64,000 bases of DNA from Pirellulaceae bacterium. Its GTDB lineage: Bacteria; Planctomycetota; Planctomycetia; Pirellulales; Pirellulaceae. The notes beneath the pieces were generated by a model that saw nothing but the letters and a program-made list of their open reading frames with translations, was not told the origin of the DNA and searched no databases. Position numbers and translations under genes: made by a program. The stretch lies in assembly GCA_026004775.1 (NCBI GenBank), contig BPJU01000004.1:1-64000 (forward strand), read 5' to 3'. Of this stretch, positions 11,241 to 58,940 are shown piece by piece. Position 1 is the first letter of the stretch; each line of letters starts with the position of its first letter.

Positions 11241-11446
11241 AGGGGCCAAGCTCGCGCGATCCGTGGTGTAGGGTAAGAGGTGAGGCTGGCGCTCCCGGTG
11301 GTGTTGGGTGAGGGCCCCAGCTGCTAGGCCCGATGGCGTGGGCCGACGAGCCAGGCTGCCGGCCCAAACGGCGTTGACCGAGCAGGCCCCGCCTCCGGCT
11401 GTCCGTGGGCGAAATTGGGGGACAGACCCCTCATATTTCCAATCGC

Positions 11447-11612
11447 GCGGGGACAGACCCCGGCAGTTTCGCGGCTCCCGACGGGGTCAGGTTCCCTAGG
11501 TTTTTCCCCGCGGTTCGCCGCCTGCCCCCCTCCATTGGAGAATCGCCGTTGCACTTTTGGTGCAGCCAACCCGCGCGGCTCGGCTTCCTTAGCCTCGCTT
11601 CTTCATCGGATG
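11447..11612 (+). repeat. direct repeat copy B with intact REP-like hairpin
   Basis: The second copy of the element at 11073-11240. Its first 45 bases hold a hairpin with arms GACCCCG (11456-11462) and CGGGGTC (11482-11488). The GGGGACAGACCCC core is repeated once more just upstream at about 11417. The remainder shares the GTTGCACTT, CCCGCGCGGCTCGGCTT and terminal TCGGATG blocks with copy A. GGGGACAG-type palindromes are known to accompany REP-associated transposase genes in several phyla. Confidence 0.75.
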
Positions 11613-11822: not shown

Positions 11823-13589
11823 CTAACTTGTGTCCGGCGGCGGCCTCGCGTCAGCCTCCGCCGAGCTTCCTTCAGCTTGCGCCCTCAACATCGCCCGCCG
11901 CCGAGCCACCCACTCGCGCAAGCCCAATAACTCCTGAGCCCCACGCACCAGGTCCACCCGCCACAACTCGCCAGCCTCCACAATCCGGCTGATCGTCAAC
12001 CGCACCCGAGCCAACGCCCCTCGTAGCTCCGCCATCCGCTCCTCACTCACCCCCAACAACTCAGCCACCTCGTCGGCCAACTCCTCCGGCGTCTGGCGAG
12101 CCGCCAACAACCGATCGGCCCACCTCGCTCGATCTTCCTCCGCCAATAAGCCCGGCACCCGACCCACACGCGCACACTCGGTAAGCCACTCGATCAGCTT
12201 CTGCCGAGCCCTTTGAAGCTGTTGCTCGTCCAAAGCTCCCATCCGGAACTGCCGCTGGCCCTGCCTCCACTCGTCATACCGCTTCTTGTCAAACACCACG
12301 TCCTGGTCCTCTGGCTTGATCTGCCGCCATGCACACCAGGTCGTCCCCACCCACCGCACAAGCTCAGCCCACTCCACTTCGTCGATCGGCCCAATCCCAA
12401 GAGCATGCTGCCAAGAGACGCCCGCGCCCATCTCACCGCTGTACCTGCGGCAGTCCACCGGACCCAGCTTGATCGGCGGCACCGGAAATTTTCGTCGTTC
12501 ATCACGCTCGGCTTCCTGCCTACCAGCCGCGCCACGGGAAGTCTTCCTTTTATTCCGAGAACCTCGCAACTCCGCTCGCGCTTGCCCACCTCCCGAACGA
12601 GATGGCACTTGCCCACTTGGCGAAGCAGCCAGCGTTTCTTCATTCGGTGCACCCAACGCCGTCGCTTCGTCAAACGATGTTTCCGAGTTACCCGACGCCT
12701 GGCCACCTGCCGCCGGAGCCTCCGTTTGTTCAACAGCCGAAGGTTCAGCGGTTGTCTCGTCGGACAAGTCGGCCTCTTCGGTTAGCTCGCCATCATCGAT
12801 ATCCCCATCCACTACCCGCTGCATGCCCTCTCTGAGCAATCGAAAAGCTCTGCCCAACGAGGCACGCACCTCTTCGCTTAGCTGAGGCGTATCGGCCAGC
12901 GTTTCCTCGGTGACCTCCACACCGCACACCTGGATCGCATAGACCAGCCGGCACCACCCAGAACCATGGTGCGGCTGCTCCAAGACCGGCACCATCCGCA
13001 CCGCCACCGGGTGCGCGTCGATCAGCATGTTCATCGTCACCGAATCCGCCTGGTTCTTCTCCGGAGTGCCAGAAAACCGTTCGGACCAAAAGCACCCGCG
13101 CACACCATCTTCACGGTTAAAGTGAAAAGCCGAAGTCTGTTTGATAAGCTTCATGAAAAGCGATACGGATGAGAGCCTCTCCCGCATTTCTTTCTGGAAC
13201 TTTTGGTCTTCCAGCAGTACCGCTGGCGGATTTCTCTTCCACCGGCATTCAATACCGTTCTCTTTGCAATACTCTCTGACCAGTTTGCGAAGTCCCTTCC
13301 AGGCACGCTGGAGCACTTCCTCGTTCGACCAGCTTTTTACCCAATCGGGTCGTAGCTGCAAGCTGATCAGAATCGCCTCGGGCAGTATCGTGCAGGAATA
13401 GACTACCAGGCCGAAGACGCTGGCGTAGTGCACCACCTTTTCGAACAAGAAGAGTGGCCGGTCGATGCGCTCGTCTACTCGTGATGGGTCTCGCCGGATA
13501 AGCGCCTCTTGACGCACGCAGGTCGAGCCGCACACCAGGCGGATCAGTTCGCCGTTGGAAAAGACGTCGCAGCGTCGTGGCCGAGCCAT
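11823..13589 (-). CDS. degenerate REP-associated (Y1/HUH) transposase-like protein with extra C-terminal domain
   Basis: 588 residues in three parts. Residues 1-245 follow the Y1-transposase-like family common in planctomycetes: an N-terminal CGSTCVRQEAL segment, RPDWVKSWSNEEVLQRAW, RERLSSVSLFMKLIKQ and NREDGVRGCFWSERF. Where active relatives have the HUH motif (NHFH) this protein has EAIL (residues 71-74), and the segment that usually reads YVDLNP reads LIDAHP (189-194), so both metal-binding histidines and the likely catalytic tyrosine are missing. Residues 246-370 are a disordered linker. Residues 375-588 are a helical domain starting LGPVDCR, shared with the protein at 56238-57890. The start at 13589 has GGGAGGA upstream. 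It is probably a DNA-binding, non-transposing derivative; catalytic loss is inferred from remembered family motifs. Confidence 0.65.
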   Translation of the reverse strand: MARPRRCDVFSNGELIRLVCGSTCVRQEALIRRDPSRVDERIDRPLFLFEKVVHYASVFGLVVYSCTILPEAILISLQLRPDWVKSWSNEEVLQRAWKGLRKLVREYCKENGIECRWKRNPPAVLLEDQKFQKEMRERLSSVSLFMKLIKQTSAFHFNREDGVRGCFWSERFSGTPEKNQADSVTMNMLIDAHPVAVRMVPVLEQPHHGSGWCRLVYAIQVCGVEVTEETLADTPQLSEEVRASLGRAFRLLREGMQRVVDGDIDDGELTEEADLSDETTAEPSAVEQTEAPAAGGQASGNSETSFDEATALGAPNEETLAASPSGQVPSRSGGGQARAELRGSRNKRKTSRGAAGRQEAERDERRKFPVPPIKLGPVDCRRYSGEMGAGVSWQHALGIGPIDEVEWAELVRWVGTTWCAWRQIKPEDQDVVFDKKRYDEWRQGQRQFRMGALDEQQLQRARQKLIEWLTECARVGRVPGLLAEEDRARWADRLLAARQTPEELADEVAELLGVSEERMAELRGALARVRLTISRIVEAGELWRVDLVRGAQELLGLREWVARRRAMLRAQAEGSSAEADARPPPDTS

Positions 13590-55474: not shown

Positions 55475-55908
55475 TCTTGATCCGAAAGCCGGATGGAGCA
55501 CTTTCCACCACGAGCCCAATGTCTGGTTTTCGGGTGGGCACGAAGGTGGCTGCCTAAAGAGGGCTCAGGCTGCCGCGTAACCGGATGAGCGATCGCGATC
55601 GGGTACGGGGGCGTTGTCTTGATTCCCATGCAGCGACTCTAGTGCTTCCTCATGGGATAATTTCTAGTTACAAGGATTTCTGCTGGCCTCGGCCCTCCGA
55701 GATGGTTATTCGCCAGTAGATCAGTTGCCAGTCGACGCCGGGCCGTTGGTCGTCGAGATCCATGGACCAAGTGGTGACCTTTGAATGGGCTAATTGGCGA
55801 GTTTCTGTTAACCCGAAGTTCCAGGGGCAGGGCTCTAGAAGATGCGGGCGACGCGCTAGGGGGGGGCCGTGCCGGGCAACGCAATGGGCAATCCACCGCG
55901 AAACGATG

Positions 55909-55985
55909 GTGCCAGGCACCACGGTCTGGGCGCCAATGGTGGTGCCAGGCACTACGCTAACCACGAAAATGGTGGTGCCAGGCAC
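55909..55985. repeat. three palindromes at exact 33-base spacing
   Basis: The perfect palindrome GTGCCAGGCAC (5-base arms, 1-base centre) occurs at 55909-55919, 55942-55952 and 55975-55985. Copies 2 and 3 share extended flanks (ATGGTG before, TACG after). The starts are exactly 33 bases apart, about three helical turns, which would place bound proteins on one face of the DNA. A degenerate fourth, GTGCCGGGCAAC, lies at about 55869. Confidence 0.75.
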
Positions 55986-56237
55986 TACGGTTTTCCCGGC
56001 GGGGCCGCGAACCGATACCACCCTAATTGTGGATTATTCTATCAGACAATATCGGTAATTTCCGGGCGCGTGTTCGCCCCTACTGGCACATCACCGCTCA
56101 GAAAAGCCGCAACGAGAAGCCCAAAAGACCAAGTACCGGCTCTTGCGAGCCACCACCGACAAGACTCTCACCCCGCAACCCGCTTCGGGCTGCTAAAAAA
56201 GCTTCCGAAAAAGTGAAATTTCATCCATCACACGACG

Positions 56238-57890
56238 CTAACTCGAGTCCAACCGATTCTCGTCCGAGCCTGCCCGCTCCTCGCGCTGGCTACGCAGCAA
56301 CGCGCGCCGCCGCCTCACCCAATCGTTAAACCCTAACAACTCCTTGGCGGTCCTCAGCGGATTGCGCACCCACGCCTCGCCCGTCCGTATCACATCCGCT
56401 ACGCGCAACCGCACCCGCCCGAGCACCCCACGCAACCTCTCCAACTCCGCCTGCCCATACCCCATGAGAAGCGCAACCACCCCCGCCAACTCGTCCGGAT
56501 TCTCCCTTGCCGCCAATAACCGCTCGACCCATTGTTGAACCTCTTCCTCCGTGCTCAAGCCGGGCAGTTGACAGGCTTGCCCCCACACCTGAAGCCAATG
56601 GGCCAAGTTCCGGCGCACTCGGTCTCGCAGATTCTCATCCAGCGGCTTTACCCGGAGCAATTCGTCCGTGATTTTCCAATGGCGACCCGGGCGGTGTATC
56701 TGCTCCTCTTCCACATCGGCGCCGGGCTTCACCAACCGCCAAATCCGCCATGTGGCACCCAACCACCGCGAAAGCGCTACCCATTCGACCGGGTCGACCG
56801 GCCCGATGCCCGATATCCCGTGCCACTGGTCGACGTCGGTTGCCGGCCAGCCCTCTGTCCGGCAATCCACCGGCCCCAACGCCAGCACTTCGCGTATTTC
56901 TTCCACATAGCCATCAATTTGTATTGGCTCAACAGCGCCGGCACTCGCCGCCTCATTTGCCTGCCGGCCTTGCCGGGACGCATTTTGCCTTGATGCATTT
57001 CGCCTGGACGGATTTTGCCTGGACGGACTGTGCCTGGACGGATTCTGCCGTGATGGATTCTGCGTACCATCCGGCACGTGCAGCCCGCCCGCAACCACTA
57101 ACCCCGATTCCAGCTCCACACCCGCCACCTGGATCCTGCCACCGTCCGGAGTCCGCAGCCCCGTGATCACCAATTCGTTGAGGTCCGTTACCACCTGGAG
57201 CAAGCTGTCGTCGTCTTCCAGGCCTTTCTCACGCATCAAACCCACATATCGGTCCCACAGCGAACCGCTGTGACACACCTCCGATATCGGGACCACACCA
57301 GTCGACACCAGCTCGATTTCTTGAATCAATGCCACCAGGATCGAATGCGACTCGGCATTGACCGGCACCGAGCCATATCGGTCCGACCAAAAGTGGCCGC
57401 TTACCTGGTCCTCCTGGTTGAAGAGGATCGCCACGCGTTGCTTGACCACTTGCTCGAAAAAGGGCAGCGACGCCAATTGCCCGCGCCAATACTCAATAAA
57501 CTCCACGTCCTGGCAAAGCACTTCCGGTGGCGGTGCATTACGCCTCCAGCGGATGCGGTGCTCCCTGCACCTCTTGGCAACCGACCTGGGAAAAGCATGC
57601 TTTACGCGAAGCAGTAGCTCCTCGGCCGACCAGCTCTTCGCCCACTCCGGATGCACGTGCAAATAGCTTACCCAGGCGTTGGGCAGCACAGCCGTCGAAT
57701 AGAGCTCCAACGCAAAGGCCGGATGATAGCGGCTACAAGTCTCTAGAAGAATCTTGCGCCTGTGGGAGAAATCCTTTCCCAGTATCCGATCCTTGCCCAG
57801 CAGGGCTTGCTGGCGAGAACACTCCGAGATGCACGCCACCCGCACAGGTTGGCCGTCGGGCAAGATCTCATATCGAGCAACTCGTCCCAT
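56238..57890 (-). CDS. degenerate REP-associated (Y1/HUH) transposase-like protein, paralogue
   Basis: 550 residues, a paralogue of the protein at 11823-13589. The N-terminal part follows the same family: CISECSRQQALLGKD, KDFSHRRKILLE, HPEWAKSWSAEELLLR, and NQEDQVSGHFWSDRY. The HUH position reads NAWV (residues 71-74), so both histidines are replaced at the same positions (72 and 74) as in the paralogue; the expected tyrosine position is I189. A linker with a 5-residue repeat of the type QNPSR follows, then a C-terminal helical domain starting LGPVDCR (about 340) that matches the paralogue closely (IGPVDPVEWVALSRWLGATW versus IGPIDEVEWAELVRWVGTTW). AGGAG lies upstream of the ATG. Probably a domesticated DNA-binding protein. 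Confidence 0.65.
   Translation of the reverse strand: MGRVARYEILPDGQPVRVACISECSRQQALLGKDRILGKDFSHRRKILLETCSRYHPAFALELYSTAVLPNAWVSYLHVHPEWAKSWSAEELLLRVKHAFPRSVAKRCREHRIRWRRNAPPPEVLCQDVEFIEYWRGQLASLPFFEQVVKQRVAILFNQEDQVSGHFWSDRYGSVPVNAESHSILVALIQEIELVSTGVVPISEVCHSGSLWDRYVGLMREKGLEDDDSLLQVVTDLNELVITGLRTPDGGRIQVAGVELESGLVVAGGLHVPDGTQNPSRQNPSRHSPSRQNPSRRNASRQNASRQGRQANEAASAGAVEPIQIDGYVEEIREVLALGPVDCRTEGWPATDVDQWHGISGIGPVDPVEWVALSRWLGATWRIWRLVKPGADVEEEQIHRPGRHWKITDELLRVKPLDENLRDRVRRNLAHWLQVWGQACQLPGLSTEEEVQQWVERLLAARENPDELAGVVALLMGYGQAELERLRGVLGRVRLRVADVIRTGEAWVRNPLRTAKELLGFNDWVRRRRALLRSQREERAGSDENRLDSS
56971..57062. repeat. 15-base coding tandem repeat in the linker of the transposase-like gene
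   Basis: About six copies of a 15-base unit related to GCCTGGACGGATTTT encode a pentapeptide repeat of the form (Q/R)-(N/H)-(P/A)-S-R. Copies differ by 1-4 bases, so they are still close to identical and may vary in number between strains. Confidence 0.7.
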
Positions 57891-58445
57891 CCGGACTCAC
57901 TCCTTACTTGGCGCGTAATCCTTGTCCCCTGCGGCGCGCTTTACGCCCGCACCGGCCGGCCGGATAGGAGTTTGCCCAACCAACCCTAGAAGTTTATCAA
58001 AACCCCGGCGAATCCGGACACCAAGTGGCCGATCTTTTTTTGCTCGAGCTACCGATCAAGCAAGCAGTGCGGTCTTGTCCGGTGCCAGAATCGGCGACGG
58101 AGACGGACGGTTGATTAAGGAGGGGCGGAAGAGTATGGCCACTCAGCCAACGGCTCGACAAACAGAACGGTCATGCGACGGCAGTCAAAGGCCTCCGCGA
58201 TTAGTCCGTCAGTTCAACCGGACCGTTTGCGTTCAACTTCAACAAAAACGGAGCTCGCTGCAGCATCTGGCTTGTCCCGTTGAACTTCCGAATGACTTGC
58301 TGATACTGCCGACATTTGTTGTCCGTTGAGCGAACGATATACATCTTTTGCATGGCTGCCCGCCCAGACTAGGTATCAACGGTTGGCTGACGGCAGCCAA
58401 ACCAATCCGACTCCGTTATTCCCAAATCATCAACGAGACGAAATA
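57891..58445. other. intergenic region, no confident gene
   Basis: 555 bases. One open stretch from ATG 58135 to 58329 (64 codons) follows AAGGAGG at 58116-58122, but the spacing of 12 bases is long and the product, a basic Gln/Arg-rich peptide, resembles nothing I know. No RNA gene or repeat is evident. Confidence 0.4.
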
Positions 58446-58940
58446 CTAGCTATCCGCCGCATAAAGTTCGGCGTATTCGAGAATCCACGTGTCGATGCGT
58501 TTTTGGAACTGGTCGGCTGAGGCGTTTTCGATCGGCATGTGGTAGCGCCGTTCCAGCAGTTCGCGATTGCGCACCGTTCCCTTAGCTCTGAGATCCACCA
58601 CGTGGTATGCCGAAAATGGTGCCACTGTGATCTCCAGTCGGCTGTAAAGATTCTCGCCCCGGCCCTTGGCGTGCGGGGCAAGTCGCAAGTCATCGCGATA
58701 GCAGGCCGCCCCCCAACCACGCTCGCCAAACACCGGCTCGTACAGAAAACCGGGTACCTGGTGCGCAAACTTTTCGAGCGCCTGCTCGATATGCTCGGAC
58801 AATTCCAGCCGCATTTCGGTATGACGCCGCCGCAGCTCTTCCTCGGTCCATTGCTTTTGCTCGTGTTGGGCCTTGTTGGCGAGCCCTCGCTGGCGGCCGC
58901 GCCGCAGTGCTTCCTGAAGTCGATCTTCAAAGTCTTTCAT
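58446..58940 (-). CDS. conserved hypothetical soluble protein
   Basis: 164 residues, no membrane segment or signal peptide. The first 55 are a highly charged helix (MKDFEDRLQEALRRGRQRG and onward, possibly a coiled coil), followed by a compact alpha/beta part with VPGFLYEPVFGERGWGAACYRDDL, YSRLEITVAPFSAYHVVDLRAKGTVRNRELLERRY and a C-terminal helix. The regular mix of charged and hydrophobic residues, and good codon structure, indicate a real protein. I do not recognise a function. It probably belongs to a family confined to planctomycetes. Confidence 0.7.
   Translation of the reverse strand: MKDFEDRLQEALRRGRQRGLANKAQHEQKQWTEEELRRRHTEMRLELSEHIEQALEKFAHQVPGFLYEPVFGERGWGAACYRDDLRLAPHAKGRGENLYSRLEITVAPFSAYHVVDLRAKGTVRNRELLERRYHMPIENASADQFQKRIDTWILEYAELYAADS

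Follow-up and report, generated by a model that had tools for sequence, protein, structure and literature searches.

Background

As described in PMC3733652, a REPtron comprises a TnpAREP/RAYT gene and its cognate REP palindromes, among which a GTAG REP superfamily is recognized. The same paper gives GGGGWSAS as the TIRYT consensus and reports the HUH motif and the catalytic tyrosine as conserved in all aligned RAYT members (PMC3733652). RAYTs have been sorted into classes, including subclass 2.3, with a tree that kept only sequences carrying both motifs (PMC6006769), and the proteins are regarded as low-copy, domesticated enzymes (PMC6006769, PMC3733652). Our searches of the RAYT/REP literature, which included PMC3733652, PMC6006769 and PMC8266576, found no description of multi-copy RAYT members lacking HUH. 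Searches for literature on inactive, domesticated IS200 proteins with the catalytic tyrosine and on repetitive extragenic palindromic sequences in Rhodopirellula found none, and the string GGTGCCTGGCACC was returned only from unrelated papers.

Here we took as our starting point a short palindrome array in a 64,000-nucleotide stretch of a Pirellulaceae genome (hereafter the window), which lies beside a gene for a 550-aa protein (56238..57890, minus strand). A protein search of the same genome with this gene product returned 76 matching stretches, which resolve into three families, A (to which the gene belongs), B and C. Family A resembles REPtrons in its predicted fold, for which 4er8 is the best match, in the GTAG-tagged short palindromes that adjoin the gene, and in having one motif per protein family. 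Unlike REPtrons, families A, B and C lack the HUH pair, the tyrosine and the partner asparagine and exist as many near-identical gene copies, and the A arrays are tandem, uniformly oriented, located on the 3' side and not dispersed gene-free. Features shared with TnpAREP subclass 2.3/TIRYT, as described in PMC6006769 and PMC3733652, are a C-terminal extension and an insertion that follows beta3 and precedes alphaC; subclass 2.3 is said to prevail in Alteromonadales (PMC6006769), and the named homologues here include Alteromonadales. The opposite-strand C units GGGGACAG and GGGGTCAG fit the TIRYT consensus given in PMC3733652, whereas the published members retain HUH and the tyrosine (PMC6006769, PMC3733652). 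The IS200/IS605 group offers a related fold (IS608 and ISDra2 TnpA, Z 10.5-12.1) and short palindromes near an end, but differs in that A, B and C lack its active site and carry a tandem array where these insertion sequences have a subterminal hairpin at either end.

A multi-copy element with the array as its 3' module

The motif GTGCCAGGCAC consists of 5-base inverted arms on either side of a single central base and is imperfect as a palindrome. Counted from the gene, its exact plus-strand copies are unit 1 at 55975-55985, 256 bases beyond the last sense codon, unit 2 at 55942-55952 and unit 3 at 55909-55919, with starts 33 bases apart; a degenerate fourth unit with 2 mismatches lies at about 55869..55879 on the same strand, at a spacing of 40 beyond the third. 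Tandem Repeats Finder independently reported a 33-base array at 55907-55991, in agreement with the exact matches, so that the original prediction of three identical sites at 33-base steps is confirmed. When one mismatch was allowed the window gave 6 matches, that is, the 3 sites on both strands, compared with a mean of 1.94 and a maximum of 6 in shuffles.

Across the genome, GTGCCAGGCAC had 93 exact matches (53 forward, 40 reverse) against 3 (1 and 2) for a reversed-pattern control. Defining a cluster as neighbouring sites no more than 200 bases apart, we assigned 84 sites to 26 clusters by manual tally and left 9 single, where about 3 are expected; a GTAG context was present in only 1 of these 9. 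The genome search proposed with the original prediction thus yielded 26 clusters, every one of which adjoins a family-A gene or remnant, and the suspected link to the neighbouring gene holds. Wide dispersal between genes, away from the transposase-like gene, was not seen in this genome beyond the 9 single exact sites. In 24 of 25 family-A loci the distance from the gene end to unit 1 is 255-258 bases, the exception being a fragment. Since all 26 clusters accompany the gene at 56238-57890 in one of its copies or remnants, usually at this distance beyond its end, the array is the 3' module of a multi-copy family-A element rather than an isolated operator. The original prediction had missed this, as it had the loss of the catalytic residues described below.

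Family A comprises 26 loci, namely the 25 analysed and one at a contig end; DNA was extracted around 35 A or motif places, 6 B and 15 C, one of the stretches containing a single motif and a B gene. The common core begins at an A-tract, which precedes the ATG by about 130-230 bases depending on subtype, and runs through to the array. In the window its left boundary (58029..58042, minus strand) reads, in gene sense, as an A-tract followed by GATCGGC, and copies diverge outward from it. Cores are at least 90% alike, whereas the flank classes beyond them are common to subsets of copies at roughly 68-80%. The outer right block (55639..55905) recurs in 9 other A copies with a likeness of 73-80% along most of the block, and the outer left block (58179..58450) is 68-78% alike in several others, partly at other distances from the gene. 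These outer flanks are mosaic, and the ends of family A are therefore blurred. We considered that family A had inserted into independent genomic repeats and rejected this, as the outer right block had 14 matches, 13 at A loci and one (38 bases) elsewhere, and all 14 matches of the outer left block were at A loci. A resemblance of the outer left block to an IS630 relic, suggested by a 50-aa reading, found no Pfam match and is not claimed. Within the family-A gene there are 15- and 30-base tandem repeats (56970-57059 in the window), and the difference between copies of 545 and 550 aa equals the length of one 15-base unit.

Families B and C have motifs of their own

The window also contains a member of family C, encoding 588 aa at 11826..13589 on the minus strand, which is one of 15 C loci in the genome. 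Beside it, on the same strand, the motif GGGGTCTGTCCCC occurs exactly at 11418..11430 and 11449..11461, at a spacing of 31, followed at a spacing of 34 by a variant read from the sequence, GGAACCTGACCCC, at 11483..11495. Genome-wide, GGGGTCTGTCCCC had 39 exact matches (control 0), none of them more than about 1.3 kb from one of the 15 C loci, with close neighbours 31 apart. Family B has 8 loci, 7 of them full and mostly 37-38% identical to A, plus a 3' remnant at C6:23422. Its motif, AGAGGCTGTCNCC, gave 13 matches (control 1), 10 at B loci and 3 in the form of GCC variants elsewhere, and paired B-type units 33-35 bases apart were found in 6 of the 7 full loci. A B-type motif pair at C6:23422 had been considered as a gene-free counter-example until the adjoining DNA proved to be the 3' remnant of the eighth B copy. 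The expectation that each protein has its own site is supported, as C has GGGGTCTGTCCCC and B a third motif, each linked to its own loci.

Tandem B and C motifs are spaced 31-35 bases apart overall. Read by eye on the opposite strand, the A, B and C units have GG[TG]G-N-CAG in common, and no GTAG was seen by eye ahead of the palindrome in B or C units. By eye, B and C had seemed to conserve a hairpin at the left end, its stems kept paired by compensating changes. This was abandoned, as shuffle-based folding was weak and few copies folded well: against composition shuffles the mean z was -0.54 for B (7 loci), -1.36 for C (13 of 15, excluding two whose left part differs) and -0.33 for A (22 of 25, leaving out three fragments). 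In some C copies only (L082, L088 and L090), strong inverted repeats with an A/T core lie about 160-206 bases before the gene, just outside the conserved left part.

A predicted TnpAREP fold that lacks the catalytic residues

The family-A protein had no family match in Pfam, NCBIfam or PHROGs, Pfam Y1_Tnp was below cut-off or absent, and a search of genome contigs with the A protein alone identified no relative. Alignment of A residues 1-217 with canonical relatives by hhalign gave 99.5% and E 2.7e-22. An AF2 model of residues 1-230, built from 56 sequences with the relatives in the alignment, reached pLDDT 87 and pTM 0.83; an earlier model from two sequences (pLDDT 42) was set aside, and the C-terminal half was poorly modelled. 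The best PDB match to the model was 4er8, a structure of TnpAREP with a REP hairpin (E 1.4e-4 in Foldseek; Z 12.8 in VIA-align, at rmsd 3.2 with 146 aligned), with IS608, ISDra2 and other Y1 transposases next at Z 9.4-12.1 and the remaining listed rows at 7.6 or below. A sequence search of solved structures gave weak matches, mostly Y1 transposases, with a best E of 0.36. Residues 1-230 of the window gene product are thus predicted to adopt the Y1 transposase fold of TnpAREP/RAYT type, without HUH and the tyrosine.

The HUH pair (H72, H74), the catalytic tyrosine (Y189) and the partner asparagine (N193) are present in 54 of 54 aligned named relatives and in none of 36 A, B and C proteins compared (18, 6 and 12, respectively), and H19, R23, E151 and R196 are likewise lost in all 36. 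Conversely, residues including Y55, C108, K150, Q151 and H207 are invariant in A, B and C and rare in relatives. Among loci of unnamed relatives both motifs were found in 54 of 55 (some repeated, giving 44 distinct proteins), the other having no readable ORF. The 80 named loci comprise 74 with both motifs, 3 with one (two truncated by the locus, one with an HSH outside the search pattern) and 3 with no ORF. A quick tree of 81 rows, several of its branches being long, joins families A, B and C in one clade at SH-aLRT 100, and the three have A72 in common. As all three families lack the catalytic residues, and share A72 in particular, the active site would, most simply, have been lost before they split, with recent multiplication coming later.

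Identity of the A, B and C proteins to canonical relatives is low, at 19-26%. Matches occur in 86 of 149 genomes of the taxonomic family, including the genome studied here, and for the canonical homologues the best named relatives come from Pirellulaceae and other Planctomycetota, which makes a Pirellulaceae-like host likely. Among the matches listed from 396 genomes of the order (85 of which match), there was no full-length relative outside this genome, alignments ending by profile position 297 of 570, and no match at E 1e-30 was found in 391 other genomes of the phylum sample. The only PF01797 matches in the genome itself are at C16:42747-43088 and C2:517890-518060; the former belongs to an intact IS200-like Y1 protein of 157 aa with DHVH and YIRKQ, and the latter to a RAYT-like gene split over two frames.

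Related palindromes in other genomes

Of 116 distinct canonical genes, 10 have a near-identical palindrome, GGTGNCWGNCACC, no more than 500 bases away (0.05 expected, control 0). At these 10 genes it was upstream in 7 (-64 to -66 in 6, -80 in 1) and downstream in 4 (+176 to +257), one gene having both. The remaining 106 of the 116 genes, which are not independent of one another, have no GGTGNCWGNCACC within that distance. Counts of GGTGSCWGSCACC against its control over 149 genomes were 72/0 in G024, 66/1 in G122, 28/0 in the genome studied here and 18/1 in G013, most others being near background. In G024 and G122, GGTGCCTGGCACC lies in dispersed REP-like clusters, at 72 and 66 places (L169-L188), and the 20 regions that we inspected (13 and 7, respectively) all showed dispersed clusters, one of them including a canonical RAYT-like gene that the motifs flank on either side. 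An ORF flagged as RAYT at another (L186) does not resemble one. The original prediction would have been refuted by clusters elsewhere without such genes: none were seen in the genome that carries the window, but G024 and G122 have dispersed clusters of a near-identical 13-mer that are mostly gene-free. Their layout resembles the published REP-RAYT arrangement, from which, by this comparison, the window element would be a derived form. In Colwellia, GGTGGCAG occurs at +190, +224 and +389 after a canonical RAYT-like gene, possibly as a tandem array.

Multiplication of the elements

With dN/dS at about 0.28 over 18 A copies, 0.13 over 6 B copies and 0.30 over 9 C copies, the ORFs are under purifying selection. 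Within families, nucleotide identity is 88.1-98.3% for A, 98.7-99.3% for B and 95.9-98.5% for C, and decayed copies are numerous in A and C. The B copies, at different places, have common limits relative to the ATG, on the left about 200 bases ahead of it (7 of 7) and on the right about 1,935 bases after it (6 of 7), although in some pairs the likeness runs slightly past those limits; like ends at unrelated places are thus seen for B, and are blurred for A and C. We infer that the copies arose by transposition; no empty site was seen, and the genomes listed as matching in the family and order searches include none of the same genus.

We consider that the GTAG-tagged REP-type array is probably the 3' module of a REPtron-derived element that multiplied after losing the known catalytic centre. 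The ancestor would have been a REPtron, a TnpAREP/RAYT gene with cognate REP palindromes; A, B and C would descend from a common ancestor that had already lost the HUH pair, tyrosine and asparagine, and each family would have multiplied afterwards. The encoded protein, retaining its predicted TnpAREP fold, most likely still binds the array of its own family, and cutting may come from another enzyme in trans or from an unknown active site. In support of this reading are the array-gene linkage (all 26 clusters at A genes or remnants, with the fixed distance of unit 1 and the GTAG tag), the B and C motifs at their own genes, the RAYT homology and predicted fold, the residue loss in a single clade with no counterpart among the 54 relatives, the purifying selection, the close identity and like limits of the B copies, and the palindrome at 10 canonical genes; the linkage, family-specific motifs, predicted fold, residue loss, selection and B limits are established by computation. 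Counting against it are the blurred ends of family A, the lack of an empty site among those seen, the one-sided arm changes and weak hairpins of the array units (described below) and the many canonical genes, albeit non-independent, that have no palindrome. Here a clade without the catalytic centre nevertheless has its gene and array in three recently multiplied families, with distinct motifs, in one genome. If correct, this would mean that REP binding is separable from REP cutting, would provide three natural pairs of protein and site with which palindrome reading by the fold could be tested, and would pose the question of what moves the A, B and C elements.

It is possible, though we think it doubtful, that the elements are passengers moved in trans by an unrelated or distantly related enzyme, the dead protein serving only to guide, protect or repress. 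The absence from A, B and C of every catalytic residue of the relatives is consistent with this, as is the presence in the genome of the intact 157-aa protein on C16 and the frame-split gene on C2. However, no array motif is present on C16, and a pure passenger would hardly be expected to keep a 550-aa ORF under purifying selection. It seems unlikely that the TnpAREP-fold proteins of A, B and C themselves multiply the elements without an HUH-tyrosine centre, by a re-invented active site or by recruiting a host nuclease to the bound array; the invariant residues that are rare in relatives (Y55 and the others given above) would be the candidates for such a site. We also give little credence to the proposal that the three families are now immobile, the protein being a domesticated DNA-binding factor, the arrays its binding stations and the copies products of recombination or gene conversion. 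Recombination would account for cores that are more alike than their outer flanks and for the array units, which are reshuffled between family-A copies, but the B limits recur at different places and the many decayed A and C copies resemble element turnover.

Spacing and structure of the array units

Of the 52 intervals between neighbouring exact motifs at the 25 family-A loci, 20 measured 33 bases, 11 measured 31 and 5 measured 32; 30 and 35 occurred once each, and the other 14 were 65-130. When units with as many as 2 mismatches were included, 33 accounted for 32 of 78, the rest being 29-36, 40, 62-68 and a single 447. Strict 33-base phasing as a defining trait is ruled out by these spacings, which are mostly 29-36; two successive steps of 33 belong to the window copy. 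The original prediction had also taken the spacing, near three helical turns, to suggest cooperative binding on a single DNA face, which would make the palindromes phased operator sites. This now appears distinctly improbable: the two steps of 33 in the window and the predominance of 31-33 (36 of the 52 exact intervals) fit it, but spacings range from 29 to 36, and reach 40, between units with up to 2 mismatches, and the sites lie at the 3' end in sets of 2 to 11 units.

The consensus over 89 family-A units is accGTAGTGCCTGGCACCac-tTTt, with GTAG ahead of the palindrome at 85-95% per position and a TTT run that starts 5 bases past it (T at 100, 96 and 78%). That the palindromes are transcription terminators of the gene is very improbable in spite of this T run, as a terminator scan reported only 2 sites, both away from the array and against 2.6 expected, the hairpins are weak and there are several units per gene. 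Folded as single-stranded DNA, the three window units gave z of -0.96, 0.04 and -2.50 relative to shuffles, only one thus folding better. Together with the arm changes among 102 units, which were one-sided in 23 of 23 cases and compensated in none, this argues against selection on a hairpin. The array size in family A is 2 to 11 units, and at one decayed family-A gene (C1:342656-343762) we observed a long GTGCCAGGCAC array with periods of 65 and 128 bases.
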